Assembly (NCBI RefSeq): GCF_012849055.1
Contig: NZ_CP051677.1
Coordinates: 4,541,001 to 4,605,000, forward strand
DNA: 64,000 nucleotides
Direction of reading: 5' to 3'
Origin: Spirosoma rhododendri
GTDB lineage: Bacteria > Bacteroidota > Bacteroidia > Cytophagales > Spirosomataceae
Part shown: in pieces, positions 38,714-55,253 of the stretch
Layout of the letters: each line of letters begins with the position of its first letter
Numbering within the stretch: the stretch's first letter is position 1
The notes under the pieces: model-generated
What the model was told of the DNA's origin: nothing
The model's input: the letters and a program-made list of their open reading frames with translations, nothing else
Database searches by the model: none
Translations under genes and position numbers: made by a program

Positions 38714-38742
38714 TCTGCCGACGCCTGAAAACTGATCCTGCT

Positions 38743-40128: not shown

Positions 40129-40131
40129 GTT

Positions 40132-40245
40132 ACGGTTTTCGGTATACAGTTTACGGTTCACTGTACAATCACCGAGCAAGGTATCCATGATCGAACTCAA
40201 CCGTACGACACACCACCGAAAACCGTAAACTGAAAACCGTATACT
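40132..40245. repeat. Imperfect palindrome between lutB and lutC
   Basis: GGTTACGGTTTTCGGTATAC and GTTTACGGTT words on the left pair with CGAAAACCGTAAACTGAAAA and CCGTATAC on the right (about 40219-40245). The whole spacer folds as one hairpin inside an apparent operon, so it may set lutC levels. Confidence 0.75.
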
Positions 40246-40251
40246 GACCTT

Positions 40252-40830
40252 ATGTCCCGCGAACGCATTCTTTCCGCTATCCGGCAAGGAAAACCCGACT
40301 TGCAACCCCTCCCCGACGTTATCGGTTTTCCGTCGAACATCGCCGACGCTGACCTGGCGGATACCTTTCTGACGATGGTCAAAACCAACGGCGGAATTGG
40401 TGTACGCGCCAATTCACTGGACGACGTTCGGGCGCAGATCGCGTCGGAGTACGATCTGACGTTGCCAACGCTCAGCCATGTCGACGGTCTCGATCTGAAT
40501 AACTTTACCCCGACTGAAAACCTGCGTCTGCTCGATGATCTGAATCTGGTGGTGCTGGAAGGTAGCGTCGCAGTGGCCGAAAATGCCGCCATCTGGTTCA
40601 ACGAAGCCACCCTGGGCATCCGGGCGCTGCCATTCATTACGCTCAACGTCGTTGCTGTCGTATCGGCCCGTAATCTCGTTGGCACCATGCACGAAGTCTA
40701 CAAACGCATTGACCTAAACACTGGCTTTGGCACGTTCATCGCTGGTCCGTCGAAAACCGCCGACATCGAGCAATCGCTGGTTATTGGCGCTCACGGGTCC
40801 AAGACGATGACCGTCTTTCTCATGCCCTGA
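40252..40830 (+). CDS. lutC: LutC-type LUD-domain protein
   Basis: The 192-residue LUD protein is the third LutABC component: it starts SRERILSAIRQGKP and contains LLDDLNLVVLEGSVAVAENA and FIAGPSKTADIEQSLVIGAHG, the typical C-terminal motif. Full length. Regulation by the intervening hairpin is possible. Confidence 0.93.
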   Translation: MSRERILSAIRQGKPDLQPLPDVIGFPSNIADADLADTFLTMVKTNGGIGVRANSLDDVRAQIASEYDLTLPTLSHVDGLDLNNFTPTENLRLLDDLNLVVLEGSVAVAENAAIWFNEATLGIRALPFITLNVVAVVSARNLVGTMHEVYKRIDLNTGFGTFIAGPSKTADIEQSLVIGAHGSKTMTVFLMP

Positions 40831-40889: not shown

Positions 40890-42065
40890 ATGATTACCGT
40901 CTGCATCGACAGCCAGGACGCTACCTTGCTAACCGTAACGTTTCCCCCCGACAACACCGGCAACGACCTCATCCGCCAGATAGCCGGTCGGCGCTGGAGT
41001 TTCTCGCGCCGATGCTGGGTTATTCCCAACACCCGCGCATCACTGGTGCAGGTTGGGCACCTCTTCGGTAAGGCCTACTGCCGCTTCGACGAAGCCGTCG
41101 TTCGCCTGTACAAACCCGACGCCAGCCCCGCCCAGGCCGAGCAGGCAACAAACCCCGCCTGGCCCCCTGTCGGTAAGCCCCTCCCCGCCCGACGCCCGTT
41201 TCGATACGCCCCCGCGCAGCGCGAGCATGACCAGCACCCGGCTATCATCGCCCTTACGAATGCGCTGCGCGTACAGAACTACAGCTACAAGACGCTGAAG
41301 AGCTACAAACAGGCCCTGATCGCCCTGATTCGCTACACAAGTCCCCACTCGATCGACACGCTGACAAAAGCGCAATACCAGCAGTACCTGCTGTTTCTGG
41401 TCGACAAACGGCAGCTAAGCAGTTCGACGCTCAATGTTCACATCAACGCTTATATATTTTACCGCGAAAAAGTGTGCGGACACGACAGCGAGTTTTACAC
41501 CATCGACCTTCCTCGCCAGCCCGTCAAGCTCCCTACTGTTTACAGCATACCTGAGGTCAGAGCTATCATCAACGCTACCACCAGCCTGCGTTACCGGACT
41601 CTCTTCCAGCTGGTTTACGCGACCGGCCTGCGCGTAAGCGAAGTAGCCTGCCTGCGCCTGCCCGACCTCGACCGTACGCGTCGGATCATCAACGTTCGTG
41701 CTGGCAAAGGAAAAAAAGATCGGATCGTCATGCTATCCGCCAAACTGATACGCATCATCACCGAGTACCTGACTCATTATCACCCGCAGACTTACCTGTT
41801 TGAAAACGCAGATACCGGCGAGCCACTCGCGGTTCGGACAATCCAACAGGTCTACAGCGACACCACCCGATTCGCGGGAATCCGTAAAATCGGTGGTATT
41901 CATACCCTGCGACATAGTTTCGCCACGCACATGCTCGAATCAGGCACCGACATTCGGTACATTCAGGAACTGCTGGGACACACCAGTCTGCTGACAACCA
42001 TGCGCTACACACATGTCACAGCCGATAAGATCAGCACACTCAAAAGTCCACTGGACGATCTGTAG
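40890..42065 (+). CDS. Tyrosine recombinase at the head of the cassette array (integron-like integrase)
   Basis: The 391-residue protein has a complete tyrosine-recombinase domain: Arg248 (YATGLRVSEV), GKGKKDR at 272-278, HTLRHSFATH with His338 and Arg341, His364 (LLGHTSLLTT) and Tyr373. It ends in TLKSPLDDL, very like the SPLDxL terminus of IntI integrases. Only about 59 residues lie between GKGKKDR and HTLRHS, so the IntI-specific extra helix region that reads attC bulges is missing. Residues 1-80 form an extra domain (IAGRRWSFSRRCWVIP) seen in some Bacteroidota recombinases; 115-200 is a SAM-like core-binding domain. The gene points toward the array, opposite to classical integrons. Confidence 0.85.
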   Translation: MITVCIDSQDATLLTVTFPPDNTGNDLIRQIAGRRWSFSRRCWVIPNTRASLVQVGHLFGKAYCRFDEAVVRLYKPDASPAQAEQATNPAWPPVGKPLPARRPFRYAPAQREHDQHPAIIALTNALRVQNYSYKTLKSYKQALIALIRYTSPHSIDTLTKAQYQQYLLFLVDKRQLSSSTLNVHINAYIFYREKVCGHDSEFYTIDLPRQPVKLPTVYSIPEVRAIINATTSLRYRTLFQLVYATGLRVSEVACLRLPDLDRTRRIINVRAGKGKKDRIVMLSAKLIRIITEYLTHYHPQTYLFENADTGEPLAVRTIQQVYSDTTRFAGIRKIGGIHTLRHSFATHMLESGTDIRYIQELLGHTSLLTTMRYTHVTADKISTLKSPLDDL

Positions 42066-42321
42066 CCGGATCATGCCGACGGAGCATCGGGCGTAGCTGA
42101 TGCAGGCTATAAAAGCGGCTGCTAATGACGTACCCCTGTGTGTATCGTTTGATCGTGCGCCTGAGCAGTTTCAGTTCACCCCGTTTCGTAATCCGGTACA
42201 GTTGACCAAGTTCGTCGAAGAAATGATCAGGAAATCCGTCGATATCCCAGATGCGTTGCACAGCTGTACTTACCTGCCATTTACTCAATTCAATAGGATC
42301 AGTTTTGACGCGGAACTGCAA
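42040..42321 (-). CDS. Small unknown protein between recombinase and attI, antisense
   Basis: A possible 93-residue gene reading against the array. The segment IWDIDGFPDHFFDELGQLYRI followed by basic KRGELKLLRRTIKRY (split here: GFPDHFFDELGQLYRI and KRGELKLLRRTIK) resembles NUMOD4/HNH-associated DNA-binding modules. It overlaps the recombinase 3' end by 26 nt and ends the attI-proximal spacer. It could be a recombination directionality factor or just a relic. Confidence 0.5.
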   Translation of the reverse strand: MQFRVKTDPIELSKWQVSTAVQRIWDIDGFPDHFFDELGQLYRITKRGELKLLRRTIKRYTQGYVISSRFYSLHQLRPMLRRHDPATDRPVDF

Positions 42322-42431
42322 TTGTCGAAATTACTGCTCCACATATGTTGGGCACAAACTTACGGAACTATAAGTACCTACCAATCAGCATCTTTTAGTT
42401 CCGCAGTTCCGCGCACAATATCCTGTTGGGT
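42309..42431 (+). other. Candidate attI site
   Basis: The last base positions before cassette 1 contain GTTGGGT at 42425-42431, with no partner GCCCAAC upstream, as expected for attI. Four GGAACT words lie nearby: direct at 42312 and 42364, inverted (AGTTCC) at 42397 and 42405. CGCGGAACTGC (42309-42319) and GCAGTTCCGCG (42403-42413) are exact complements. A second core-like GTTGGGC is at 42347-42353. These could be extra recombinase-binding sites like the DR sites of attI1. Confidence 0.6.
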
Positions 42432-42630
42432 GGTGTCCAAAAAATGTATTTGTTCGGCGGGTTCCGGGCGACAAGGCGCACGGCTCGAAAGGCAGGTTTT
42501 AGCTCGTTGGGTGGGTTGCGTGTGACAAAGTGAACACCCCGCTTGGACAGTCTGAAAAGTGGGTTTGCCCGCTTTCCGCAGACAGGCCGCATGGCTCGAC
42601 AGGTCAGGCTTGAAAAATAATTACCGAGAA

Positions 42631-43017
42631 ATGGACAAAAGAGCATTCAAAACCTTAAATGAATACCTTGAAAAAGTGCCAGCTATTGAGAAACCGATTG
42701 CATTCGGCGTGGATGGCAATGGCCTTTGGTGGGTAAAATTCAGGATTGACATAACTCACCAATTGGCTTGGCAAGTGGTTCAGGAAGTGGGGTTTGTCTG
42801 CAATTATTTATCACTTGACGAACGTTTGCCAACCGTCTTTTATCCAGTTTCGCCACCACCTTATTTAAATGGAGGCCCGCAGGATTTTTTATCTTGGGTG
42901 ATTGAGACGAAAGACAAAGATTTCAAGCCTGGCACTTTAAAACAGTGGTTAGAAGGTCGCCTTCCCAGACCAGTAGATGATTTGATGCAATGGCAGCTTG
43001 ATGAAGAAGATGAGTAA
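42631..43017 (+). CDS. Cassette 1 protein, unknown
   Basis: I use ATG 42631, giving 128 residues. Motifs include FGVDGNGLWWVKFRIDI, VVQEVGFVCNYLSLDERLPT and PYLNGGPQDFLSWV, an acidic C-terminus (LDEEDE) and no signal. I have a vague sense of similar proteins in other bacteria but cannot name a family. It is the first cassette gene after attI, 199 nt from the core site. Confidence 0.75.
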   Translation: MDKRAFKTLNEYLEKVPAIEKPIAFGVDGNGLWWVKFRIDITHQLAWQVVQEVGFVCNYLSLDERLPTVFYPVSPPPYLNGGPQDFLSWVIETKDKDFKPGTLKQWLEGRLPRPVDDLMQWQLDEEDE

Positions 43018-43067
43018 AAGGGTAGCTGTCGGGTGACAGGATGCTCGCCGGTTGGGAAGGCTTGGCA

Positions 43068-43155
43068 GCCCAACCAAACAGGGGTGTAAAGGTTGGAAGT
43101 AACTCGCGTTCAGCTATCTTGTGTGCTCATCCATCAGCCCCTGTTGGCGTTGGGA
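43068..43155 (+). repeat. attC-like site 1
   Basis: GCCCAAC at 43068-43074 and GTTGGGA at 43149-43155 (last base A rather than the usual pyrimidine). Inner arms AACAGGGG / CCCCTGTT. The conserved TGTAAAGG follows the left arm; a TGACA box lies 29 nt upstream. Confidence 0.85.
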
Positions 43156-43521
43156 CCTCGACTAAGCATAAACGGGTGTGCCGCGTGCCGGGCGACAAGA
43201 CGCATCCTGCTGACAGACGGAAGTTTTTGGTGCGTCATGGGCTGGCTGACAAGACACCACGGGCCGACAGAACGTCTTTTTTGATGGGCTGGGTCGCGGT
43301 CGACAGGCCAACGCCCGTGAGGCAACAACCGACAAGCATGGGCCGCTCGACAGGGCAAACGATGCGCCAGGCCAACCACTCAGTAAAAGCAGTTGGTCCT
43401 CACTAAGCAACTACGTAGCTTGGCTTCACGCCAGTCGCATAGCGGTTAGTACGTGGTTGTCCGCTCGGCGGGGGCTGTGCTGTCGGTTGACAGGAAGCGG
43501 TTGGGCAGGCCACGCATAGCA
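43156..43521 (+). repeat. Cassette 2 body: no convincing gene, YGACA repeats
   Basis: The body has at least eight CGACA/TGACA boxes in degenerate repeats (for example GGCTGACAAGACACC, GGTCGACAGGCCAACGCCC). Open frames here have no start context or protein-like composition. It is therefore an apparently gene-less cassette of about 425 nt. Confidence 0.7.
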
Positions 43522-43580
43522 GCCCAACAGGGCGGGGGTGTAAAGGGGCTGCGCCCCATCAATCCCCGCAGGCGTTGGGT
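43522..43580 (+). repeat. attC-like site 2 (short)
   Basis: GCCCAAC at 43522 and GTTGGGT to 43580, only 59 bp; inner arms GCGGGGG / CCCCGC. The variable loop is much shorter than in the other sites; TGTAAAGG is kept. Confidence 0.82.
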
Positions 43581-43924
43581 GGAGGTCCATATCAGATGTG
43601 CTTGGCGGCCTCGGTCGACACACCGCACTTGATTGACAAGCAGGCTTTTACGGTGCCAGTGGGGCGTCGGTCGACAGGCCAAACTTGGGGACAGGCCAGC
43701 CTTTTTTGGCGGGTCAACTCGCGGGTGACAGTGGGCAATTGAGCGTTGACAGGCTCTAAAAGGCATTAGTCGACATGAGGCACTTGAGCTGTGGTCGGGC
43801 CGACAAAATAGAAAGCTACCGCGTCAGGCTTCGCGCTCGGTCTCAGCGGACAGTGCGTTGTGGTTCGCTTCGCGTGGGGTCGTTGCCGGGCGACAGGAGG
43901 CAGGCCGCAAAGGCACGTTCTTCA
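43581..43924 (+). repeat. Cassette 3 body: no convincing gene, YGACA repeats
   Basis: Again the body is filled with YGACA repeat units (GGTCGACACACCGCAC, GGTCGACAGGCCAAAC, GGGTGACAGTGGGCAA, and others). No plausible coding frame with a start signal is seen. With cassette 2 it makes about 850 nt of gene-less cassette DNA near the head of the array. Confidence 0.7.
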
Positions 43925-44010
43925 GCCCAACCAAGAAAGGGTGTAAAGGCCGAGGGTGCGGCTGTTCAGGCAAGTAGCGGGTGCGCCATCAGCCCTTTCG
44001 GGCGTTGGGT
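43925..44010 (+). repeat. attC-like site 3
   Basis: GCCCAAC ... GTTGGGT, 86 bp. Inner arms GAAAGGG / CCCTTTC, a pairing shared with sites 7 and 8. Confidence 0.87.
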
Positions 44011-44211
44011 GATTTTGCCGAAATGTGCTTTCATTTCGGGGTTTTGTGCGACAGGTAGCACGCTACCCAACAGAATGGTTTTGGCTTGTTGGTTGGTTTC
44101 AGTCGACACGAGAAACGCCCCGATTGATGCAGACCAAAAAGCGTGTTTACCACCTGGCGTCTGACACAGGAATCGCCCCGATTGGACAGATTAGCTACTG
44201 ATTACAAAAGC

Positions 44212-44613
44212 ATGAGTCAAACTTCTATCAGAGTCTACCTTTCGGTGTTTGGTGATTGCTTCGACTTGACAGCTCTAACAACCTTAGTCGGGGTCACCCC
44301 GACTGAGACTGGTATTAAAGGGCAACCGATTGCTGATAGGCGAACGACCTACAAGGAAACCTACTGGGATTTGTCCATAGGTCCGACCGAATCATTAGAT
44401 TTGGCGGAAGTGTATGAGGCTCTTTTGAATAAGTTAAACGGTTCAGAAGAAGCTATTTGTCAGTTCATGAGTGCTAATCATTTGTCGGCCAAGTTTAACA
44501 TCGTCATTTACATTGTGAACGGACGAACGCCAGGTATTTACTTTAACCGGGCATTTCTCAACAGCGTAGAGATGCTCCAAGCGGAAGTAGATATTGATAC
44601 GTATGTAACGTAA
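44212..44613 (+). CDS. Cassette 4: DUF4279-domain protein
   Basis: The 133-residue protein begins SQTSIRVYLSVFGDCFDLTALTTLVGV, followed by PTETGIKGQP and YWDLSIGP, the pattern of DUF4279 (beta-alpha-beta fold, function unknown, common in mobile DNA). ATG 44212 is 201 nt after the core site. The stop is 55 nt before attC 4. Confidence 0.8.
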   Translation: MSQTSIRVYLSVFGDCFDLTALTTLVGVTPTETGIKGQPIADRRTTYKETYWDLSIGPTESLDLAEVYEALLNKLNGSEEAICQFMSANHLSAKFNIVIYIVNGRTPGIYFNRAFLNSVEMLQAEVDIDTYVT

Positions 44614-44668
44614 GTGCGCTAGTCGGGTCTCGTGTGACAAGAGGCAGGCCGCAATGGGAGGCCAAGCA

Positions 44669-44754
44669 GCCCAACCGGCAGGGGGTGTAAAGGTCGAGAC
44701 TACGTTCGTTCAGGTAAATGGCGTTACCCCCATCAACCCCCTAGGTCGTTGGGT
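44669..44754 (+). repeat. attC-like site 4
   Basis: 86 bp; inner arms GCAGGGGG / CCCCCTA (one non-Watson-Crick change). Loop contains GTTCAGG. TGACA box 29 nt upstream of GCCCAAC. Confidence 0.88.
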
Positions 44755-45043
44755 GTTCGTCTATACCGGGTGGGCATTTCAGGCATCCGAGCGACAAACC
44801 ATACAGCTCGAAAGGTAGGTTTAGGTGTTCATTTCGGTGTCTCGTGCGACACGAGAATCGCCCCGGTTTGGTGGCTGATGGCTCTTTGGGAGCTTTGGTT
44901 GACACTAGATACTCCTTTAAAAATCTAGCCTTCGGGTTTATATTCCCATGTTCCGCTTGACAGCGCAAACCCTTTTTGTAAGCAGCTTAACATTTCCAAC
45001 GGTTGAGCCAGCTTTTGGGTCATCTTGAAAAATAAACTTGACC

Positions 45044-45343
45044 ATGAAAAACCTACTTTTATCGCTGTGCTTACTGAGTAGCATCAGTTGTAGTAAAACG
45101 GAGCTTGATCCAAAGGCAAAGGTTGAAGCAACAATTCTGAAGTTGGTCTTAAATCCAACCGTCTACTGTACTTGCTGTCAGGGCTACCAAGTGCAGATTG
45201 GGAGCCGACTATACTTTACTAATCATGTGACGACTCCTTACGACAAGCCCAATACACCGGTGGTCATTACTTACAAACAGCCCGAAGAAGGTTGTGAGCA
45301 GTCAGAGAATCGGATTAAGATTGTTTCCATCAGAGGCCGGTAG
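45044..45343 (+). CDS. Cassette 5: small lipoprotein, unknown
   Basis: From ATG 45044 a 99-residue protein with a lipoprotein signal (KNLLLSLCLLSSISC). The mature part has two Cys close together (VYCTCCQGYQVQIG) and a third at EEGCEQS, possibly disulfides. A TTG start six bases upstream is possible. AT-richer than chromosomal genes nearby. Confidence 0.78.
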   Translation: MKNLLLSLCLLSSISCSKTELDPKAKVEATILKLVLNPTVYCTCCQGYQVQIGSRLYFTNHVTTPYDKPNTPVVITYKQPEEGCEQSENRIKIVSIRGR

Positions 45344-45419
45344 GTCTGCTGGCAGTTATTGGTTGGCTGGTTGGGGTAGCTTCCCGTTGACAGGAGGCAG
45401 GCCGCTGAGGAATGCCGAG

Positions 45420-45507
45420 CAGCCCAACCGGCAGGGGGTGTAAAGGTTCAGGTACGTGCGTTCAGGTGGCTTATATCCCACTCCATCAACCCCCTGGGTC
45501 GTTGGGT
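45420..45507 (+). repeat. attC-like site 5
   Basis: 88 bp; inner arms GCAGGGGG / CCCCCTG. Near-identical in arms to sites 9, 10 and 11. Confidence 0.9.
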
Positions 45508-45761
45508 GTTCGTCAAAGCAGTGCCTCAAATTCGGGCTTTCGGGCGACAATTTGACCGCCCCGCGTGGGCAAGTTTAAGTATATATTTCGGTGTCTCCGG
45601 CGACAAGTTGCAGGCCGCAGAGGTCAGGCTTTTGGCTTGTTCGGCAGGTTGCGGCTGACAAGTCAAATGGCGGAGTGATGATACAAGGTAAGTTAGATGC
45701 TTTTGGACTGACAGGACAAAAATAAGTTACACAACTACTAAAATTTTAGTCGAACCATACA

Positions 45762-46355
45762 ATGAATTATCTAAAAACAAAGAAGGTCGTTGACGCGAAA
45801 GCAAACAGAGACTTTGTTGTCGAAGAACTTGAGAAAATTTTCAACATTGAACTTTTACTTGTTCGTGGTCAAATATTGATAGAATATGTGTTTACTTCTT
45901 TCATAGAAAATTACTCTACCGAAGATGATTATAGATTAGACGATAAATTTCCCTTCTACTCAAAATTTCAAATATGTAGATTACTTGGACTTTATACAGA
46001 AAAAGATACTGCATTGATAGAGCAAATTAATGTCATCAACAAAATGCGAAACGATATTGCACATAAACTTACTTTTGATAGAACACTATTACCTAATCTC
46101 TACAAACATCATAATGGTTTGAAGCAGGAAGTAAAAGAGAAGAAATTGAAGGGTGAGGCAAAAGATAGGTATATGCTAGTCATGATCTTTGGTTCTTTGT
46201 GTGGAAACTTTTCGGGAAGAGCCGCAGCAGTAAACACAGTGCATAACACTATCAGTGACTTTGTACTTGGAAAGACTGTTGGAAGCGGAAGGAATTTTGC
46301 CGAAATTCTACAACAAGATATCGCAGATCTTAAGCTAGCTATAAGCCAAGAATAA
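45762..46355 (+). CDS. Cassette 6: HEPN-like protein with R-x4-H motif
   Basis: This 197-residue helical protein is clearly AT-rich compared with the chromosome. It has MRNDIAH (Arg96, His101), the R-x4-H active-site pattern of HEPN ribonucleases, in an otherwise unrecognised sequence. HEPN proteins are often toxins or defence effectors. No partner antitoxin gene is in the cassette. A stand-alone defence or abortive-infection role is a hypothesis. Confidence 0.75.
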   Translation: MNYLKTKKVVDAKANRDFVVEELEKIFNIELLLVRGQILIEYVFTSFIENYSTEDDYRLDDKFPFYSKFQICRLLGLYTEKDTALIEQINVINKMRNDIAHKLTFDRTLLPNLYKHHNGLKQEVKEKKLKGEAKDRYMLVMIFGSLCGNFSGRAAAVNTVHNTISDFVLGKTVGSGRNFAEILQQDIADLKLAISQE

Positions 46356-46440
46356 TGTAGGATAATGTTACTCATTATTCGCTCTCTGTATAAGTTGGCT
46401 CTCGGGCGACAGGGGGCAGACCGCTAAGTCAAGCCAAGCA

Positions 46441-46524
46441 GCCCAACTCAACGGGGGTGCAAAGGTCAGGGTACGTTCGTTCAGGTGGCCCCGCCCCCAC
46501 CATCAACCCCCGTGGGTGTTGGGT
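46441..46524 (+). repeat. attC-like site 6
   Basis: 84 bp; inner arms ACGGGGG / CCCCCGT, like site 13. Has TGCAAAGG in place of TGTAAAGG. Confidence 0.88.
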
Positions 46525-46704
46525 GATTCTTAATGCCGTGTCTGTATTTCCAGCGTCCGGTCGACAAGTCGCACTTGGGAACAGGGTCGGCTTTTCATGA
46601 TGGAGCCGCTTCGGTCGACAAGCCACACTCGTCTGACGAGCCAACTCTCACTTTAAAGTCGGGCGTCGGTCGACAAGTTAATCTTGAATCAGTGTCAACC
46701 ATTT

Positions 46705-47055
46705 ATGAACATTGAAGACCTCTCATTTCACGACGCTATCATTATCAGTGTAGCAGAAAATACTGTAGACCAAAGCTTTGAGTTTTTATTGAGTTTCCCT
46801 ACAAACTGGGACGACAATGTTTTTGAGCCTAAAATATTGCGGTTTACTGACGTCACTTTTTACAGTGTGGATGAAATACCTTTCAATGGCCAACCAGCTA
46901 TCGTAAATATAGAAAGCTGCGGAGCGGTAACAAAACCGCTCAACGCAGGCCTGAATCCGTTCTTATTCACAAGACAGAAAATAAAAATTCTCACCAATGC
47001 TGGGGATAGATTTATCGAGTATGCGGACTGTTTTCTGTTGGATGCGTCAAAGTAA
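46705..47055 (+). CDS. Cassette 7 protein, unknown
   Basis: From ATG 46705, 116 residues starting NIEDLSFHDAIIISV, then strands EFLLSFPTNWDD, ILRFTDVTFYSV and IEYADCFLLDAS. The LSFHDA start recalls small immunity-type proteins (beta-rich, binding partners), but I cannot assign a family. An upstream ATG at 46684 would add seven residues. Confidence 0.7.
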   Translation: MNIEDLSFHDAIIISVAENTVDQSFEFLLSFPTNWDDNVFEPKILRFTDVTFYSVDEIPFNGQPAIVNIESCGAVTKPLNAGLNPFLFTRQKIKILTNAGDRFIEYADCFLLDASK

Positions 47056-47114
47056 AAATGAGCAGATGTCAAGTCTCGGGCGACAGGGTGCAGGCCACAG
47101 AGGTGGGCGAAGCA

Positions 47115-47202
47115 GCCCAACCAAGAAAGGGTGTAAAGGCAGGTAGCTACATTTGTTTAGGAAAGTAACTTGCTCATCCATCAGCCCTTTCGGGCGTTGG
47201 GT
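47115..47202 (+). repeat. attC-like site 7
   Basis: 88 bp; inner arms GAAAGGG / CCCTTTC. CGACA box 29 nt upstream. Confidence 0.88.
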
Positions 47203-47463
47203 GCTCCAGACAATATAGAAAAGCGTATTTGCGGTCCTCGTGCGACAACAAGCACGTCTCGCGGGGCAAGTTTTAAGTTTCCATTTCCGGGTCGCGACTG
47301 ACAGGTTGCAGGCCGCAAAGGTCAGGCTTTTTGCTTGTTAGTTGGGTTTTGGTTGACACGAGAAACGCTCCAGTTTGGCAGGTTTGGGTTTACGGGGCGG
47401 CTCTTTGGCGACAGGCCAAACACTTGAGTACGTCTCACTAGATTCATCAAAGTGTACCAATAG

Positions 47464-47802
47464 ATGGAGCATAAAACCAAAATTTGGCAAGCTCACACAG
47501 AGAAACTCATCTCTAATGCACGGGCAATATTGACGAATCAAATTGCTTTGCCTTTGGGTATCCACAAGATGATGAAGCAACTTTATTGGATAGAACAAAT
47601 TGGACCTCTACCCATTGATGTTTCATTATTGAGAGAGTATTATCAGCAAATTCAGGATTATCCACTTGGTACTGATAGGCTGCTATGGAATCCATCGAAG
47701 TTGATCGAACTGGATAGCGCAATGGAATTGATAACGCAACAGTACCGAGCAAAGCTGCTTTGGAAGTGTTTGGAAATTATTAGTTTGGAAACGCAAATTT
47801 GA
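47464..47802 (+). CDS. Cassette 8 protein, unknown
   Basis: A 112-residue, helix-rich protein (HKMMKQLYWIEQIGPLPID, LIELDSAMELITQQYRAKLL). No signal or known motif. Start ATG 47464, 261 nt after the core site, stop 49 nt before attC 8. Confidence 0.68.
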   Translation: MEHKTKIWQAHTEKLISNARAILTNQIALPLGIHKMMKQLYWIEQIGPLPIDVSLLREYYQQIQDYPLGTDRLLWNPSKLIELDSAMELITQQYRAKLLWKCLEIISLETQI

Positions 47803-47851
47803 AATTCCAGCTTTCGGGCGACAGGCTGCTCGCCCCGAAGGAGAGCGTTCA

Positions 47852-47940
47852 GCCCAACAAAGGAAAGGGTGTAAAGGTTGGAAGTTGCTCCTGTTCAAGT
47901 AAGTAGTTTCCTCATCCATCAGCCCTTTCGGGCGTTGGGT
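47852..47940 (+). repeat. attC-like site 8
   Basis: 89 bp; inner arms GAAAGGG / CCCTTTC. The upstream YGACA box is 28 nt away rather than 29. Confidence 0.88.
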
Positions 47941-48132
47941 GTTCCATACAGCGAAGGTGTGTAGGCCAGCGTCCGGGCGACAGGCCGCACGGCTCGGACA
48001 GGCAGCGCTTTTCGCTCGTTGTCGGGCCTCGGTCGACAAGCCAAACGCCCTAGTAGAGACACTTTATAAGCGGGGCGGGGTTGCGGTCGACAGGCCAGCC
48101 GCCTTATTAACCTAGTCTCGTGAAACTATTGA

Positions 48133-48546
48133 ATGAAAAGTATTGACATCACAAATATTTGGGAAGATGATGACTTAATGATGTTGTTATTCCGTGCATC
48201 AAATGGCGAAAGTTCATGTAGGTTAGAGTTTTATCAGGATGACGGAACGCTTTTGGAATTTGCCCGTCAACTGATGAGCTTTCCTAAAAGTATAGAACAC
48301 GTAGTGCAATATGAAACTGGTAATTGGGAACGGTCGGGGCATTATTTATTGCTTGAAGTATCTTGTGTTGCGCCCAGTGGTATTTCTGCTATGAGGGTAG
48401 TAGCGAAGAACTTTTACGAAGTACCTAATGCTTTCGAAGCCCAATTTTACATCAAAAGCGAACCTGCTAGTTTCAATGCATTCGGAAAAGCATTGGCAAA
48501 TTGGAAGCCTAAAGTTGACAAGAAGTTAGCGTGGCAGTTCTATTAA
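48133..48546 (+). CDS. Cassette 9 protein, unknown
   Basis: The 137-residue product is mixed alpha/beta: MLLFRASNGESSCRLEFYQD, HYLLLEVSCVAPSG, MRVVAKNFYEVP, and EPASFNAFGKALANW. The last pattern (F-K-x-EPA) is seen in some small proteins near toxin loci, but no family can be named with confidence. Confidence 0.7.
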   Translation: MKSIDITNIWEDDDLMMLLFRASNGESSCRLEFYQDDGTLLEFARQLMSFPKSIEHVVQYETGNWERSGHYLLLEVSCVAPSGISAMRVVAKNFYEVPNAFEAQFYIKSEPASFNAFGKALANWKPKVDKKLAWQFY

Positions 48547-48607
48547 TTTTGACCCAACAGGGCAAGTATCTGGTGACAGGAAGCGGGCCGCAGAGGTGAA
48601 CGAAGCA

Positions 48608-48693
48608 GCCCAACCGGCAGGGGTGTAAAGGTCAGAACTACGTTTGTTTAGGTGGCTTGGCTCCCACTCCATCAACCCCCTGGGTCGTTGGGT
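48608..48693 (+). repeat. attC-like site 9
   Basis: 86 bp; inner arms GCAGGGG / CCCCCTG. An extra GACCCAACAGGG word lies 45 nt upstream, outside the site. Confidence 0.88.
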
Positions 48694-48911
48694 GGATCAT
48701 CCAAGCCGTTGCTCGTTTGCCAGCATTCGAGCGACAATTTGAACGCCTTGCGTGGACGAGCTTGGCTTCCATCTCCGGGTCTCGGCTGACAAGGCGAACG
48801 CCCTACTAGGCCACGTTTGGGTTTGTTGGTCGGCTTCGGTCGACACGAGAATCGCCCCGGTTAGGCAATTTTAAATTTGCAAGGGTGCGCATCGTTGACA
48901 GGTAGCAATTT

Positions 48912-49112
48912 ATGAGTGAGGCAAAAACAAGCATAAACATTCCCAGCGGCTGGACATTGAGCCAGCAAGAGATTTCTAATGGCGTTTACCATGTGCGGCT
49001 CACCGCCTATTTTGGCTCGATCGTCGAAATGATGGGAACCGAACTTGATGAACTGGTGGCACATTGCGTCGAGTCAGCCAACAACATCGACAAACAACTC
49101 GGTCATCAATAG
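48912..49112 (+). CDS. Cassette 10: very small protein, unknown
   Basis: Only 66 residues (SEAKTSINIPSGWTLSQQE, YHVRLTAYFGSIVEM, LDELVAHCVESAN). It reads as strand-strand-helix. The position relative to the core site (218 nt) and attC (62 nt) matches the other cassettes, supporting it as a real gene. Confidence 0.65.
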   Translation: MSEAKTSINIPSGWTLSQQEISNGVYHVRLTAYFGSIVEMMGTELDELVAHCVESANNIDKQLGHQ

Positions 49113-49174
49113 ATTCGCTCCGCGTAGGGTAGCTTCCGGGTGACAGGGAGCAGGCCGCAAGGTCGAGCCGGGCA

Positions 49175-49260
49175 GCCCAACCGGCAGGGGGTGTAAAGGG
49201 CGAGACTATGTTCGATCAGGTGGGTCGTGCGTTCACCATCAACCCCCTGGGTCGTTGGGT
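49175..49260 (+). repeat. attC-like site 10
   Basis: 86 bp; inner arms GCAGGGGG / CCCCCTG. TGACA box 29 nt upstream. Confidence 0.9.
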
Positions 49261-49522
49261 GTTCATCTGTGCCTGGCTTCAACGTCCAGCGTCCGGGCGA
49301 CAAATTGCACGGCTCGATTAGACAGATTTAGGCTTCCATCTCCGGGTTTCGGCTGACAGGGCGAACGCCCCAGAAGTCAGGTTTTTGCTCGTTGGGCGGG
49401 TTCCGTGTGACAGATTAAACGCCCCGACAGTCCACGTTTTGGTTTGCAGGCCAGCGTCTTGGCGACAGAGTGAACGTCCCAAAAGTTGGACTTTGATATT
49501 TTTTACATTTATACTCGATCCT
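49261..49522 (+). repeat. Cassette 11 leader: clearest run of the ~55-bp YGACA repeat
   Basis: YGACA boxes start near 49297, 49353, 49407 and 49462, 54-56 nt apart. Consensus-like words after the box are GGGCGAACGCCCC or AAATTGCACGGCTCG, and the second half carries GTTTTTGCTCGTTGGGCGGG-type sequence. The leader occupies the 262 nt between the core site and the next start codon. Confidence 0.75.
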
Positions 49523-49783
49523 ATGCCTATTCCGGCTAACATTCACAGGGAACACATTTTTCAGGCAATGCTTAAAATCAAAAGAGAAGGCATTCCCGCA
49601 GGACGAGGGCCAAGGCAATGGGCTCTGAATTATGAAGGAGATATTTATCCCTGTAAGCTTTTAATTTCTTGGTCAAATATTTACGCAAATGGTGAAGAGC
49701 TTGACCCAAATCCAAACAATTTTCAAACTTACATGGCTCAAAATCACCTGACCAATTTAGGGTTCGATGTCGTGCAACTGTGA
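49523..49783 (+). CDS. Cassette 11: small protein resembling a restriction-enzyme head domain
   Basis: From ATG 49523, 86 residues: PANIHREHIFQAMLKIKREG, IPAGRGPRQWALNYEGDIYP, CKLLISWSNIYANGEEL and NHLTNLGFDVV. The pattern of a helix followed by arginine-rich strand and YPCK resembles the N-terminal head domain found in front of some HNH/McrA-like endonucleases. Here it stands alone, so it might be a DNA-binding or decoy protein. The match is from memory and tentative. Confidence 0.68.
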   Translation: MPIPANIHREHIFQAMLKIKREGIPAGRGPRQWALNYEGDIYPCKLLISWSNIYANGEELDPNPNNFQTYMAQNHLTNLGFDVVQL

Positions 49784-49850
49784 ATACTGTTTGCTGAGTA
49801 TAAGGCAGGTCTCGGGCGACAGGAGGCAGGCCGCAGAAGTAGGCGAAGCA

Positions 49851-49937
49851 GCCCAACCGGCAGGGGGTGTAAAGGTGCAGAGTACGTGCGTTCAGGTACG
49901 TGGCTTCCTCATCCATCAGCCCCCTGGGTCGTTGGGT
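49851..49937 (+). repeat. attC-like site 11
   Basis: 87 bp; inner arms GCAGGGGG / CCCCCTG. Loop contains GTTCAGG and CATCCATCAG. Confidence 0.9.
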
Positions 49938-50057
49938 GAAGAATCCATCATGTGTGGGTTCGGTGGCTTCGTGCGACAAATTGCACTCTGCTGACAGGTA
50001 GCTTTTTGTATTCGTTATTGAGCGTCGGTCGACAGCGCGCATTTATAGATGCGTGAA

Positions 50058-50573
50058 TTAGTCTGTGAAGAAGGCAATCTCCTTCTTTCGAAAGAAACAA
50101 CGAATACGATTTCGATCTGCTTGCAAATAATCAACTTCATTCATCACGGCGGCTTGAAGCGATTCCAGAGTTGTGAAGACTCGGTTCTTCAAGGATCGCT
50201 TCAACTGGCTCCAGACTAATTCCACCGGATTGAGTGCGGGACTGTAGGCTGGTAAACGCTCCAGATGGACCCGCCCCGGTCGGCTTTGGAGCCAGTTCCG
50301 AACGGTTTGCGACCGGTGGATGGCCGCCCCATCCCAAACAACCACCATGTTTTGACGGCGATACTGCCAGCAAAGCTTGCTCAAGAACCAACAGATATCG
50401 TCACTAGTAAAGGGCTGATCCTGCCCCGCTAGATACAAACGGCCTGTTGGCGAAATGGCAGCAATCAGGCTGAGATGTGCGCGGCCAGCCTGTTCCAGAA
50501 GCAACGGTGTTTGACCACGGGGTGCCCAGCTGTGGGCCACAAAAGGCAACAAATAGCACGCTGATTCATCCAC
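50058..50573 (-). CDS. IS630 transposase, catalytic (DDE) part
   Basis: The frame holds the DDE residues: Asp in LYVDESACYLLPFV (the first D just upstream in the same open frame), Asp in MVVVWDGAAIHRS, and Glu in YSPALNPVELVWSQLKR. The open frame continues upstream of the annotated ATG to the A7 tract, so it is normally expressed as the C-terminal half of a fusion with the upstream frame. Confidence 0.85.
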   Translation of the reverse strand: MDESACYLLPFVAHSWAPRGQTPLLLEQAGRAHLSLIAAISPTGRLYLAGQDQPFTSDDICWFLSKLCWQYRRQNMVVVWDGAAIHRSQTVRNWLQSRPGRVHLERLPAYSPALNPVELVWSQLKRSLKNRVFTTLESLQAAVMNEVDYLQADRNRIRCFFRKKEIAFFTD

Positions 50574-50592
50574 GTATAGAATCGTACGCCCC

Positions 50593-51069
50593 TCAATCTG
50601 CGCTTTTTTTGAGCGCAGGCAGTCGCTCGGCTTGCCAGTTGGCCACGGCCTGCGGGTCCTGCTGGCGAGCTTGCCGAGCCGGTTTCTGCCGACTCCAGCC
50701 TACTTTCTTAAGCAGCCGTCCAATTTGAGAGGGGTCATAGCTAACACCAAAAAGCTTGTTAATCACATCATTAATACGGGGCCGGGTCCACACTTGGCCT
50801 GAAAAACCGTGTTGCTCAGCCCCCTTGGCCAGTTCTTTTGTCAGTTGGTCGAGTTGATCCGCCGTCAGCCGGGACGGGGCTCCGGTGCGTTTACCGGTCA
50901 TTAGGCCTGCTTCGCCTTGCTCACGGTAGGTTTTCAGTGTTTGGCTGACCCAGCCCTGTGTCAAGCCAAAGGCCCGAGCAATATCGGCCTGTTTCCAGCC
51001 TGCCTGTTTAAGTTCGACGCACCGCCGACGCAGCGCTTCGTAATCCGCTTGTTTATAGATAGCCATCAA
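50593..51069 (-). CDS. IS630 transposase, helix-turn-helix part
   Basis: 158 residues with an N-terminal helix-turn-helix (KQADIARAFGLTQGWVSQTL) and a second DNA-binding region (INDVINKLFGVSYDPSQIGR). It ends LPALKKSAD-stop directly after a run of seven A on the minus strand (50610-50604). A +1 shift (or loss of one A) there joins it to the DDE frame, reading AQIEGRTILYVDES. Confidence 0.83.
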   Translation of the reverse strand: MMAIYKQADYEALRRRCVELKQAGWKQADIARAFGLTQGWVSQTLKTYREQGEAGLMTGKRTGAPSRLTADQLDQLTKELAKGAEQHGFSGQVWTRPRINDVINKLFGVSYDPSQIGRLLKKVGWSRQKPARQARQQDPQAVANWQAERLPALKKSAD

Positions 51070-51276
51070 GAGCTAAAGCATAAACCTTTATGGACTTACT
51101 CACGCATCAATAGGAACAGGGGCAGTTTGGTAATCGCAACTGGTTGTGGCTGACAAGATGCACTCCTCGACAGGGCAGCCCGGAAATTAGGTAGGTTCCG
51201 CCCAACTGGCTAGTAGCTTAGTAAAGACAGTTGACAGAGAAGGCAAGCAGTTCATTTTTTTGAGTTCAGAAACTTT

Positions 51277-52296
51277 ATGAAATACACGCTGATGTTATTC
51301 TGCTCTTCGCTGGCCTCATTAAGCAATGCTGTCTTTGGTCAATCACAGAAAGTAATTACTTTACTCGATACGACTATTCAAATCATGCAACGGCAATCGG
51401 TCAATACGAAGTTAGTTGACTGGAAAAAAATAAAAGACGAGGCCCTCAGCGGTGCTAAATCAGTTACCGACCCATATCAGCTCGGGCCGGTAATTAGAAA
51501 CTTATATAGAGCCTTAGATGACTATCATGGGTCCTTCTATTATAAGGATAGTACATTCCGTTGGAAGCATAAAGAGCCGACGATTTCCGATTCGATAATG
51601 CGGGAATGGAAACGAGGGGCGGGGATCAAGACCGCGTTTTTAGACGACAATATTGGCTATTTACGAATTCCAGGTATGCAATTTTCTGGCAAACAGAGTT
51701 CGGATAGCAACGCTCAAAAGTTAAATGATAGTTTATGTCTTCTGCTAAAAAAGGACATAAAAGGGTTAGTGATTGATCTCCGTTTGAACGGGGGCGGAGC
51801 GATGTACCCTATGATTCTAGGTGTACAGCAATTGTTAGAAAAGGGACAGGTTGGTTCGTTTCAGTCGGAGAAAAGGGAAAAGTGGTATTTGACCGAAACT
51901 AGTTTTTCTTTTGATACAACTGTGCTTGCCAACATAAAACCAGCGTGTGCAGTCAACGGACAAAAAATTCCAATTGCTTTTCTCATTAGCCCACCAACCG
52001 GGAGTTCAGCCGAGTTTCTGCTGATTGCCTTTAAAGGTCGGGATAAAACCATTCTAGTAGGAACAGAAACGGCGGGGTTTGTTACGAGTGTAGCGGGTTT
52101 CCCGATCAATGATGCTGCTTATGTCCTGCTATCTACTTCTTACGGAAGAGACCGAAAAGGAGTCACGTATAAAAGTGCTTTTAAGCCCGATGTACTAGTG
52201 AATAGTACCGACTCGTTCAATAATATTCAGCAAGACGAGAAGGTCAAGCAGGCAGTAAGATGGTTAAAAAAGAATAAGCCTAGTCAGGATAATTGA
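51277..52296 (+). CDS. Cassette 12: S41-family (tail-specific-protease-like) peptidase
   Basis: The 339-residue protein has a signal peptide (residues 1-21, AVFGQS) and the S41 catalytic domain: GLVIDLRLNGGG, the nucleophile Ser in PPTGSSAEFLLI, and a later Lys/Gln-containing region (TAGFVTSVAGFPIND). No PDZ domain is obvious. It is the largest intact cassette gene and one of the few with a known fold. Probably an exported peptidase. Confidence 0.88.
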   Translation: MKYTLMLFCSSLASLSNAVFGQSQKVITLLDTTIQIMQRQSVNTKLVDWKKIKDEALSGAKSVTDPYQLGPVIRNLYRALDDYHGSFYYKDSTFRWKHKEPTISDSIMREWKRGAGIKTAFLDDNIGYLRIPGMQFSGKQSSDSNAQKLNDSLCLLLKKDIKGLVIDLRLNGGGAMYPMILGVQQLLEKGQVGSFQSEKREKWYLTETSFSFDTTVLANIKPACAVNGQKIPIAFLISPPTGSSAEFLLIAFKGRDKTILVGTETAGFVTSVAGFPINDAAYVLLSTSYGRDRKGVTYKSAFKPDVLVNSTDSFNNIQQDEKVKQAVRWLKKNKPSQDN

Positions 52297-52384
52297 CTTT
52301 CTTCAAACAAATTTTGCGCTTTTGGGCGCTCCGCGTGGGCAGGTTCCGGTTGACAGGGAGTAAGCCGCAAGGTCAAGCCAAGCA

Positions 52385-52471
52385 GCCCAACCAAATGAGG
52401 GTGTAAAGGTCCAAGCTGCGTTCGGTAGCTTAACTTGTGAGTCACTCCATCAACCCTCATAGTCGTTGGGT
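52385..52471 (+). repeat. attC-like site 12
   Basis: 87 bp; inner arms ATGAGGG / CCCTCAT, unlike any other site yet still perfectly complementary. TGACA box 29 nt upstream. Confidence 0.88.
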
Positions 52472-52716
52472 GGCGGGTCAAAAATGGGCGTCAACTTCCA
52501 GCTTTCGAGCGACAATTTGAACGTTCCGCGTGGGCAAGTTTGGGCTTCCAGTTCGGCGTTTCGGTCGACAGGTTGCACGTCTGAGGTTAAGTTTTTACTC
52601 ATTCGGCGGGTTTCGGCTGACATAAGAAACGCCCTAGTTCGGTAGGTTAGGTTTGCAAAGCAGCGTCTGAGCGATAGGATGAACGCCCCGCAAGTCAAAT
52701 TTTAAAATAAAGAAGA

Positions 52717-53022
52717 ATGGATTACCAGAAAATATTAAACCGCTCTCATGAATTAATTGACACATTAACAGAGAGGATGGAAATGTGTAATAACTGGTCC
52801 GAAGAAAAAAAGAAGCAACTCAATAACTACGAACGACACGAAGCCAAATACGTTTTCGCACAGGTAAAAGCCTTAATCAGAGAGCAAGACCCTGGTAGCC
52901 CTTTTCTTGAACTTTGTACAGATGAAGAGCAGACTTGGCCGGATGATACTGGGCAACTATACCATCAATATATGCTGATTTTACATGCGTTCAATGACCA
53001 CTTAGAAGCATTTGTCGATTAA
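52717..53022 (+). CDS. Cassette 13: small acidic helical protein, unknown
   Basis: A 101-residue acidic protein: YQKILNRSHELIDTLTERME, EEKKKQLNNYERHEAKYVFA, and LYHQYMLILHAFNDHLEAF. No signal or motif. The A-rich sequence AAAATAAAGAAGA before ATG 52717 fits a Bacteroidota translation start. Confidence 0.72.
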   Translation: MDYQKILNRSHELIDTLTERMEMCNNWSEEKKKQLNNYERHEAKYVFAQVKALIREQDPGSPFLELCTDEEQTWPDDTGQLYHQYMLILHAFNDHLEAFVD

Positions 53023-53088
53023 CTTTCCTCGTTCCGCGCAGGGTGGCTTTCGGGCGACAGGATGCAGGCCGCAACGTCGTGCTTTGCA

Positions 53089-53173
53089 GCCCAACTGAAC
53101 GGGGGTGTAAAGGTCAGAGTGACGTCTGTTCAGTCTGGCCCTCGCCTACCATCAACCCCCGTGGGTGTTGGGT
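53089..53173 (+). repeat. attC-like site 13
   Basis: 85 bp; inner arms ACGGGGG / CCCCCGT. Last fully intact site in the array. Confidence 0.88.
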
Positions 53174-53277
53174 GTAATGTTCGTGGTATGGCCGTAAGAC
53201 TAAGGAAGTACTAGTGATATAAATCGAGTAGCCCTGCTGTTGTCAAATTAGGGCTGAGCGTTTTATTTCTGATATTT

Positions 53278-53302
53278 AGATCACGACTTTACGTCGTGAT
53301 CT
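53278..53302. repeat. 10-bp hairpin in the cassette 14 leader
   Basis: AGATCACGAC, loop TTTAC, GTCGTGATCT, 44 nt before the methyltransferase start. This leader lacks clear YGACA boxes, unlike the others. Confidence 0.6.
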
Positions 53303-53346
53303 AGTGCTAAAAGTGTCCTCTTTCCCACACCATAACCACCGACGTG

Positions 53347-54090
53347 ATGGCAACCGACTACAACGCGATTGCAAAAGAGTATCAGGCATCGAAATTATTA
53401 CCCTGGCGAAACTATGTCGAGTCGCACACATTCTTCGAGTTAGCAGGCGACCTGTCCGGCCTGGATGTCCTTGATTTAGCTTGCGGAGAGGGTTTTTATA
53501 CCCGGCAAATCAAGTATAGAGGGGCTGCTCAGGTTACAGGAGTTGACATTTCGGATGGTATGATCCAACTCGCGCGGGAGGCCGAAGCTACTTCGCAACT
53601 CGGACTCAGGTATCATTGCCAGGATGTTCTGTCGCTCGATCTCGATCAGAAATTCGACCTCATCTGTGCCAGCTACTTGCTTAATTACGCCCAAACAGCT
53701 GACGAACTCCATCAGATGAGCCAGGTTATTGCCAACCATTTGAAACCGGGCGGTCGCTTCGTTACCATCAACAGCAATCCCGATTACCGAGGTGTTGTTG
53801 CGACGATGTTTCCGTATGGCTTCACCCGCGAAAACGACAGTTACGAGGAAGGGGCCGCTATTACGTATCGCTTTTATCAGCCTGATGCATCACACATCGC
53901 CGTTACCAATTACCACCTCGAAAAACGTACCCACGAAACGGCTTTACAATCAGCGGGCCTTTCCCAGATTCAGTGGCATCCGGTAAAGGTTTCCCCTGAA
54001 GGAGTTGAAACACACGGAACCGACTATTGGTCAGCCATCTTAAGTTGGCAGCCTGTTATCGGGCTTTCGTGCGTCCGGGTAATGGTTTAA
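53347..54090 (+). CDS. Cassette 14: class I SAM-dependent methyltransferase
   Basis: From ATG 53347, about 247 residues with methyltransferase-11/25 motifs: motif I VLDLACGEGFYT near residues 40-51, VTGVDISDGMIQLA, DLICASYLLNYAQT and LKPGGRFVTIN. It is probably a small-molecule methylase. GC content is nearer to the chromosomal average than that of other cassette genes. The final residues read on past a normal domain end, compatible with a frayed 3' end. Confidence 0.87.
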   Translation: MATDYNAIAKEYQASKLLPWRNYVESHTFFELAGDLSGLDVLDLACGEGFYTRQIKYRGAAQVTGVDISDGMIQLAREAEATSQLGLRYHCQDVLSLDLDQKFDLICASYLLNYAQTADELHQMSQVIANHLKPGGRFVTINSNPDYRGVVATMFPYGFTRENDSYEEGAAITYRFYQPDASHIAVTNYHLEKRTHETALQSAGLSQIQWHPVKVSPEGVETHGTDYWSAILSWQPVIGLSCVRVMV

Positions 54091-54122
54091 GAATTACACC
54101 ACGTGGCTAACCTCATCTGTTG

Positions 54123-54184
54123 AGTGTACGTGCGTTCAGTGGAGTCTTTGCGTGACCCATCAATCCCCTGGCTCGTGCGGGCAA
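54123..54184 (+). repeat. Decayed attC-like site 14
   Basis: GTACGTGCGTTCAGTGG...CCATCAATCCCCTGGCTCGTGCGGGC matches the loop and right arm of the intact sites (written here only in part), but GTTGGGT has become GTGCGGG and the left arm with GCCCAAC is gone. Confidence 0.65.
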
Positions 54185-54539
54185 TTCCCCTTCGTTCATC
54201 TCCTATTTCGGTCGATACGTCGCACTTAGAGACAAGGCAAACTACCCGGTGCGCTGAGCGGCTTCAGTCGACAGGCCGGTCGTCTGAGTGGGTAAGCTTG
54301 ACAAGCCGGGCAGATACGTCCGACAGATCGCACTGCTCGACAGGTTAACCGATGGATAAACAGAATTGGTCGTGGCCGGTCAGGTTTGTAGTTTGGCTTC
54401 GCACTGTCCGATCAATACCTCGTACGCAGCCGAATCGAACAGGTGTGTAACGATTTAACCTCCTGCGTTTGATCAGCTTACTTCCCCACTAATCCCTGCT
54501 GAGGTTGCGCTTTTATCCTGTTCATCTTCTATACAACTA
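54185..54539 (+). repeat. Cassette 15 leader, degenerate
   Basis: Scattered YGACA boxes (GCTTCAGTCGACAGG, GCTTGACAAGCC, GCTCGACAGG) remain to about 54345; the rest shows no gene or repeat I can define. Confidence 0.55.
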
Positions 54540-54977
54540 ATGGAAAAACTACTCGCTATCGTTTTCCTCTTGCTCGCCACTGAGTCATTTAGTCAGTCAC
54601 GGGCCGAAACGGAAATTAGACAACTGGAGCAGTTGGAGTTAGAAGCTGTTCATAAAGGAGATACCGCTACGCTTTTTAAACTCTGGTCGAAAGATTATGT
54701 AGTCAATAATCCTTACAATCAGATCGTGACGGTGAAACAGATCGTTGGCTTCATTAGAGAAGGAAAGATTGATTATTCCAGCGTTGAGCGGATTGTTGAA
54801 AAAGTTACCGTAACGCAGAATTTAGGCATTACTATGGGCAAGGAGATCGTCACGCCTGAGAAGGCGACCGACAATGCCGGCAAGAAAGTGACCAGACGAT
54901 ATACCGACGTGTGGCTTAAGACAAAGGATGGCCGGCAGTTAACCGCTCGACAGGCAACAAACATAGCAGTAGAATAA
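54540..54977 (+). CDS. Cassette 15: secreted NTF2-like (SnoaL/DUF4440-type) protein
   Basis: The 145-residue product has a signal peptide (EKLLAIVFLLLATESFSQ) and an NTF2-like fold: an initial helix IRQLEQLELEAVHKGDTATL, LWSKDYVVNNPYN, and the strand series VTVTQNLGITMGKEIV, RRYTDVWLK. Such domains bind small molecules or act as enzymes. It lies between two decayed attC-like sites, so it is probably an old cassette. Confidence 0.82.
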   Translation: MEKLLAIVFLLLATESFSQSRAETEIRQLEQLELEAVHKGDTATLFKLWSKDYVVNNPYNQIVTVKQIVGFIREGKIDYSSVERIVEKVTVTQNLGITMGKEIVTPEKATDNAGKKVTRRYTDVWLKTKDGRQLTARQATNIAVE

Positions 54978-55174
54978 GCTTATCGAAAGGCCATATCTGC
55001 GTGACCTTGGCCGAAAGGCACTGACTGATGGTGGTGGTGGCTTCGACAGGAGCGATCCAGTGCGTTCAGGCTTTGCGCTAGGCTGATAATCGAAAAATAC
55101 CCGGCGGACCGGTTGTTTCATGCTACAATCGGGGTCGCTTTCTGGCGATAAGAAGCAGGCTGCAAGGTCAAATT

Positions 55175-55253
55175 CGCCAGCCTGTAAAGGTGCCAACGTA
55201 CCCGTATTCAGGTGAGTAGTCTGGTAGACCATACAGACCCATTAGCGTTGGGT
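55175..55253 (+). repeat. Decayed attC-like site 15 (left core lost)
   Basis: TGTAAAGG, the GTATTCAGG loop word and GTTGGGT (55247-55253) are kept, but the stretch that should hold GCCCAAC and the left inner arm is deleted (GCCAG runs straight into CCTGTAAAGG). It marks the distal end of the recognisable array. Confidence 0.7.

Follow-up and report, generated by a model that had tools for sequence, protein, structure and literature searches.

In classical integrons, a bottom-strand exchange within the R' box leaves each cassette with its own attC site at the 3' end. An additional domain is regarded as a hallmark of the integron integrases (IntI), and Messier and Roy reportedly found in 2001 that this domain is needed for integron integrase activity. 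We analyzed a 64,000-nucleotide stretch of the Spirosoma rhododendri genome (contig NZ_CP051677.1, positions 4,541,001 to 4,605,000, forward strand; hereafter the window), in which a tyrosine recombinase lacking this insertion precedes an array of attC-like sites. In published work, the IntI-specific domain is placed after the second catalytic patch and before the third (PMC9668308), integron surveys select IntI by means of it (PMC9668308, PMC2426708), and the integrase of Treponema integrons reads toward attI and the cassettes (PMC3607928). No earlier report linking integrons, attC or an integron integrase with Spirosoma, or describing a system of this kind, was found in the literature covered, which excluded most subscription papers and preprints.

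We propose, with a probability of roughly 0.8, that the window contains an integron-like gene-capture locus comprising 13 foldable attC-type sites, a conserved attI-type site and a recombinase without the IntI insertion that likely inserts cassettes at attI. Across Spirosomaceae, the recombinase is conserved and is followed in constant order by the small gene, attI and the attC array. In several pairs of relatives homology ends at GTTGGGTG, and whole cassettes are shared between genomes with exact ends. From these comparisons we infer that the integrase is not IntI and that this enzyme captures the cassettes.

The recombinase and its recombination sites

The recombinase comprises an extra N-terminal domain (approximately residues 1-100), a SAM-like domain and a catalytic domain. 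An earlier note, made from the letters of the window, described the gene as reading toward the array, with about 59 residues between GKG..R and H.LRHS, no room for the IntI insertion, and an IntI-like SPLDDL ending. The direction and the spacing were borne out: the gene lies on the plus strand facing the array, and the spacing is 59 residues. In the clade that includes this enzyme (the focal clade), the spacing was 59 residues in 26 rows and 64 in 4 (30 of 31 rows measured), versus 100 residues in 26/26 measurable IntI rows (30 rows, 4 unmeasured). Based on this difference, the IntI insertion is absent, and the enzyme lacks the additional domain by which IntI is recognized. The profile match to IntI4 was interrupted at the insertion position. 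The SP.D-type ending is present but is not diagnostic, as it is nearly invariant in relatives without attC arrays as well.

The recombinase fell short of the IntI, XerA, XerC and XerD models. Specifically, it scored 174.3 bits with TIGR02249, the IntI model (cut-off 265 bits), and 192.1 bits with NF040815, the XerA model (cut-off 220 bits), and was also below the cut-offs of the XerC and XerD models. The nearest solved sequences were XerA-type (4a8e, 5hxy). The earlier note had allowed that a true IntI might lie just outside. No protein of the S. rhododendri genome (6.05 Mb, three contigs) passed the IntI cut-off, and a hidden IntI was accordingly rejected. The genome encodes two further Xer-like recombinases. 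The N-terminal domain was also considered as the sole explanation of attC use; this was rejected because distant relatives without arrays align across it. VIA-align rows did not cover this domain.

The 13 attC-like sites counted in the earlier note were all recovered on the plus strand, at 43068-53173 behind the recombinase (Table 1). Twelve have the form GCCCAAC...GTTGGGT, and the remaining one, attC 1, ends in GTTGGGA. Each site begins with GCCCAAC at the 5' side; after a short spacer come the two arms of an L-type stem, which enclose a variable middle, and GTTGGG(T/A) closes the site at the 3' side. Pairing was evaluated using a structure hand-drawn on these same 13 sites. Paired cells amounted to 99.1% versus a shuffled mean of 94.1, and cells changed on both sides numbered 13, where shuffling gave 4.3 on average; neither value was reached in any of 500 shuffles. 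The number of pairs showing both-side change, 3, was ordinary (reached in 356 of 500 shuffles). The sites thus covary as a fold would, in contrast to the random sites that the earlier note had named as evidence against its idea. Compensatory change was found in the L stem of the 13 sites and also in the best 150 of 216 matches from the window and its relatives, which had been aligned to the model itself. The R box, central spacer and L box are maintained across these 150 sites. In this respect, an array of foldable attC sites with R and L boxes and a central spacer, the locus agrees with integrons.

A covariance model built from the window's 13 sites matched 20 places in its own genome at E values up to 1, of which 13 were the main array. 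The off-array matches comprised a pair at approximately 2.229 Mb (G000:C1 2229163-2229667) and five singles, the weakest with an E value of 0.18; lone matches include those at 75403, 1681688, 3378997 and 3917858. A search of Rfam yielded no match, and a tandem repeat finder reported two short rows and nothing else. In the hand-drawn structure, the near-invariant unpaired bases are AAA on the 5' arm, which is the R''-L'' arm, and single T and A bulges on the 3' arm. These bases are obvious candidates for strand choice without the IntI insertion.

In 22 of 27 aligned loci, the recombinase is followed after 349-399 bp by a conserved attI-type site with GTTGGGT at its end, and then by unrelated cassettes. 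The attI call for one locus (L072) was an attC-like site picked wrongly. By sequence comparison, that is, conservation of the site and the breakpoints described below, the locus also appears to possess the attI site beside the recombinase that is expected of an integron. In two loci of a deep branch (L066, L067), the attI and attC boxes are both GTTGGA, versus GTTGGGT in the main branch; therefore, the two boxes differ together from the main branch. The inverted repeat adjoining attI has arms whose sequence varies among relatives while their complementarity is retained.

A small convergent gene whose product has a NUMOD4-like predicted fold lies between the recombinase and attI in 37 of 38 loci. 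A 73-residue form of the protein is present in the protein database. Its fold may resemble that of the N-terminal portion of I-HmuI. Pfam gave no match at an E value of 0.1, and none of 18 family members had a NUMOD4 match over Pfam at an E value of 10; some UniRef homologues bear the name NUMOD4.

In the mechanism that we envisage, the recombinase would bind folded single-stranded attC and exchange it with double-stranded attI within GTTGGGT. Each cassette would be left with its own attC at the 3' end, as in the bottom-strand exchange of classical integrons. As a more speculative step, the NUMOD4-like protein might bind the changing inverted repeat beside attI and help or control the reaction or expression; this role is a guess from position and fold.

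Table 1. Coordinates of the recombinase, its neighbouring elements and the array, in window positions (ORF, open reading frame).
Feature	Positions	Strand	Basis or remark
Tyrosine recombinase, proposed integrase, 391 aa	40890..42065	+	no IntI insertion
Small convergent ORF, at most 93 aa (TTG start), NUMOD4-like predicted fold	42040..42321	-	conserved beside recombinase
Inverted repeat adjoining attI	42363..42403 (arms 42363-42374, 42392-42403)	.	comparison of relatives
Proposed attI core, crossover box GTTGGGT at 42425	42411..42432	+	conservation, breakpoints
attC 1, ends GTTGGGA	43068..43155	+	motif and covariance model
attC 2, short	43522..43580	+	motif and covariance model
attC 3	43925..44010	+	motif and covariance model
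attC 4	44669..44754	+	motif and covariance model
attC 5	45422..45507	+	motif and covariance model
attC 6	46441..46524	+	motif and covariance model
attC 7	47115..47202	+	motif and covariance model
attC 8	47852..47940	+	motif and covariance model
attC 9	48608..48693	+	motif and covariance model
attC 10	49175..49260	+	motif and covariance model
attC 11	49851..49937	+	motif and covariance model
attC 12	52385..52471	+	motif and covariance model
attC 13	53089..53173	+	motif and covariance model
Sixth cassette, whole in G106 (95% over 1018 bp), there directly at attI	45501..46518	+	alignment
Cassette ORF	42631..43017	+	no Pfam match
Cassette ORF, DUF4279	44212..44613	+	Pfam
Cassette ORF	45044..45343	+	no Pfam match
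Cassette ORF	45762..46355	+	weak HEPN-like matches, all under Pfam cut-off
Cassette ORF	46705..47055	+	no Pfam match
Cassette ORF	47464..47802	+	no Pfam match
Cassette ORF	48133..48546	+	no Pfam match
Cassette ORF	49523..49783	+	no Pfam match
Cassette ORF, peptidase S41	51277..52296	+	Pfam
Cassette ORF	52717..53022	+	weak matches, all under Pfam cut-off

Cassette movement and conservation among relatives

Alignments between relatives can change abruptly at attI. In two relatives, identity fell from 99.7% in the 300 bp preceding the attI box to 30% beyond it, and 4 of the 6 alignments that crossed attI in both partners stopped at the last letter of GTTGGGTG. The sixth cassette of the window corresponds to positions 3470959-3471976 of G106, where it is the first. 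Both of its ends lie in GTTGGGTG boxes, and G106 was the only one of the 35 other genus genomes in which it was found. Similarly, two genomes share a 616-bp cassette at 99.5%, which occupies the second place in one array and the fourth in the other. The moved block brings along its own attC at the 3' end, as would be expected of exchange within R'.

We sampled 200 genomes of the family to evaluate how often the recombinase and attC sites occur together. The recombinase was matched at an E value of 1e-40 in 75 genomes, of which 43, window included, were counted as carrying it based on a match to the N-terminal domain or clear pieces of at least 52% identity; the other matches, at 32-45% identity, left the N-terminal domain unaligned. 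At an E value of 0.01, 49 of the 200 genomes were matched by the attC model. Thus, 37 genomes had both, 6 the recombinase alone, 12 attC alone and 145 neither (Fisher p 1.3e-23; outside the genus, p 4.8e-11). Within the genus, attC sites are present in every one of the 25 genomes that carry the recombinase, some of which have it in broken form. Among the six with the recombinase alone, G094 and G049 contain divergent, AT-rich, weakly scoring attC sites (TCCAAC...GTTGGA), the gene is at a contig end in G025, G033 and G110, and it is cut at its 5' end in G118, which belongs to the same genus as G094 and G049.

The sites also keep their position and strand. The earlier note had suggested searching related genomes for the same recombinase next to such arrays; attC matches were found behind orthologous recombinases in 33 of 37 downstream stretches. 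These amounted to 203 model matches on the recombinase strand, strand having been assigned by script for 150 of 216 matches and from the table for the rest. Motif sites numbered 139 on the recombinase strand and 0 on the opposite one, the window's 13 included. Two otherwise well-conserved relatives of the recombinase (L010, L013) have one internal stop apiece.

In an order sample of 291 genomes, 15 genomes had a recombinase match at an E value of 1e-70, all of them Spirosomaceae. The named homologues among the matches listed were from Spirosoma, Nibrella and Fibrella and were called tyrosine-type recombinase, site-specific integrase or XerD. In a phylum sample of 395 genomes, which included at least 15 of this order, family counted in, IntI exceeded its cut-off in 105; the matched genomes included none of this order and one of this class. 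In 80 loci of more distant recombinases, the attC covariance model had 0 matches, and a looser same-core search found 1/80 versus 1/80 in a single shuffled control. Control searches of this kind found arrays in 4/4 focal loci and in none of 4 IntI loci with only approximately 1.5 kb of flank. The use of attC by these distant enzymes was rejected, as there was no clustering beyond the shuffled control.

Origin of the recombinase and alternative explanations

The focal clade and the IntI clade each occupied one side of a branch with support of 100/100, the recombinase being placed outside the IntI clade. In free trees, the focal clade fell among Bacteroidota-rich Xer-like enzymes at a weak fork (80/77). 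A first quick tree, which omitted seven distant loci (short or partial) and loci without a usable ORF, seemed decisive against a link to IntI. Tests of a tree holding IntI and the focal clade together did not, however, reject such a link: the approximately unbiased (AU) test gave p 0.137 with the careful tree, and a quick-run test gave p 0.705, the held tree scoring higher. The tested trees dropped 18/104 (quick) and 22/104 (careful) rows for long branches, odd composition or near-copies, and seven genome-contig rows were assigned to the IntI group after the first tree had been seen. A sister relation of the two clades is thus not rejected by the sequences. Therefore, either attC use was recruited twice, or the recombinase belongs to a sister line that never had or has lost the insertion.

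The strongest of the alternatives is a variant compatible with the integron-like reading, namely that the recombinase descends from an IntI by loss of the insertion, which would make the locus a derived classical integron and not a second recruitment. The joint tree would permit this, but we consider it unlikely: IntI forms its own clade without the recombinase, most of its nearest neighbours in the free trees are Xer-like enzymes of Bacteroidota, albeit at the weak fork, and the distant loci show no attC clustering. We see an even chance that folded-attC capture arose twice, the second time in a Xer-like Spirosomaceae recombinase with a NUMOD4-like partner and no IntI insertion, yielding a complete integron that IntI-domain searches would overlook.

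Several observations weigh against capture of cassettes by this recombinase. With respect to movement, 2 of the 6 attI-crossing alignments continued 50 and 163 bp beyond the box; among the 234 within-array alignments, only 8 ends and 4 starts coincided with sites in both partners, and no more than two blocks matched a whole cassette, most others being shorter common stretches such as leader repeats. With respect to the sites, the GTTGGGT attI box was missing in 5 of the 27 aligned loci, no attC match was found in 4 of the 37 downstream stretches (two short, two of 20 kb), and folding energies were ordinary for most sites (bottom-strand z -3.7 to 0.0, top strand alike). Moreover, the single-base bulges are predicted on the L' arm, and the published extrahelical attC bases sit on the R''-L'' arm (PMC2727003). 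Finally, of the nine same-genus genomes that lack the recombinase, eight contain attC sites; therefore, either arrays persist in its absence or they are served by another enzyme.

This last observation, together with the two other Xer-like recombinases of the genome, is what favours a fossil array, or one served in trans, whose cassettes a true IntI or the host XerC/XerD pair formerly moved while the neighbouring recombinase does something else. We nevertheless judge this improbable. Recombinase, attI and array keep their order and strand, the attI and attC boxes vary together with the recombinase branch, and no IntI exceeded the cut-off in this genome or in this order's genomes of the phylum sample. 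In addition, two of the recombinase-less genomes keep a remnant of the gene near their attC sites, at 1.2 kb in G140 and approximately 4 kb in G158. That the sites are merely dispersed hairpin repeats, such as terminators or regulatory elements around short genes, has very little to recommend it: the cassettes do bear other short repeats and the folding energies are ordinary, but homology breaks exactly at the R' box, whole cassettes are shared in new positions, and the attC-type anatomy is kept over 150 sites.

The reading that we prefer remains an integron-like platform served by its neighbouring recombinase. The earlier note had posed a choice between another recombinase lineage using folded attC and an unrelated enzyme beside an array without an integrase; co-occurrence across species, the attI lying between recombinase and array, and cassette movement with exact ends all support the former.

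Cassettes, neighbouring genes and known systems

The cassettes had been described as single plus-strand genes, and this does not hold for all of them. The exceptions were two cassettes within 43149-44003 with no clear ORF inside their bounds, the cassette at 48687-49253 with no plus-strand ORF of at least 70 residues, and that at 49931-52464, which has an IS630-like insertion on the minus strand (50061-51066, DDE_3 and HTH_33 ORFs). Cassette leaders consist of diverged units approximately 55 bp apart with a GNNGACA core (GTCGACA, GGCGACA, GCTGACA), found across 42401-53200, for example at 45543-45654, 46560-46669 and 47976-48086. The core occurs 51 times on the plus strand and once on the minus strand of the array, whereas the window outside the array has 26 and 23; matching segments are present in many genomes of the genus.

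Between 53.2 and 55.25 kb, attC-like remnants were seen by eye near 54100-54170 and 55176-55253, where the covariance model was silent at an E value of 0.01. Past the last intact attC are a methyltransferase ORF (53344-54090) and a DUF4440 ORF (54540-54977). Genes of lactate-utilization type (LUD domain, LutB_C) occupy 38500-40830, immediately before the recombinase. Beyond the array, 58832-63953 encodes what we take to be a PAAR-like short protein and a long ORF of Rhs/YD-repeat type.

If the proposed reading is correct, folded-site recombination does not require the additional domain of IntI, and strand choice becomes testable in a second enzyme. It also suggests that some orphan attC arrays have unrecognized integrases.

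The locus resembles classical integrons in its attC-type sites with R and L boxes, the position of the crossover box, an array on one strand, a fixed insertion site beside the recombinase gene and the orphan arrays left by recombinase loss. Unlike in classical integrons, the recombinase lies outside the IntI clade, lacks the insertion and reads toward the array; attI is behind its 3' end, the NUMOD4-like gene intervenes, and the single-base bulges are predicted on the opposite arm. Treponema integrons have the same reading direction, which by itself is therefore not new, but the Treponema enzyme is an IntI (PMC3607928). The lack of an insertion, the tyrosine-recombinase catalytic domain and the closest structures are shared with XerA, XerC and XerD, from which the Spirosoma enzyme differs in its extra N-terminal domain, its neighbouring attI and attC array, and its scores below the cut-offs. 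Finally, in contrast to CALIN (attC clusters without an integron integrase), the locus has a conserved, dedicated recombinase and an attI-type site, although a profile requiring the IntI-specific domain would likely file the Spirosoma array as CALIN.

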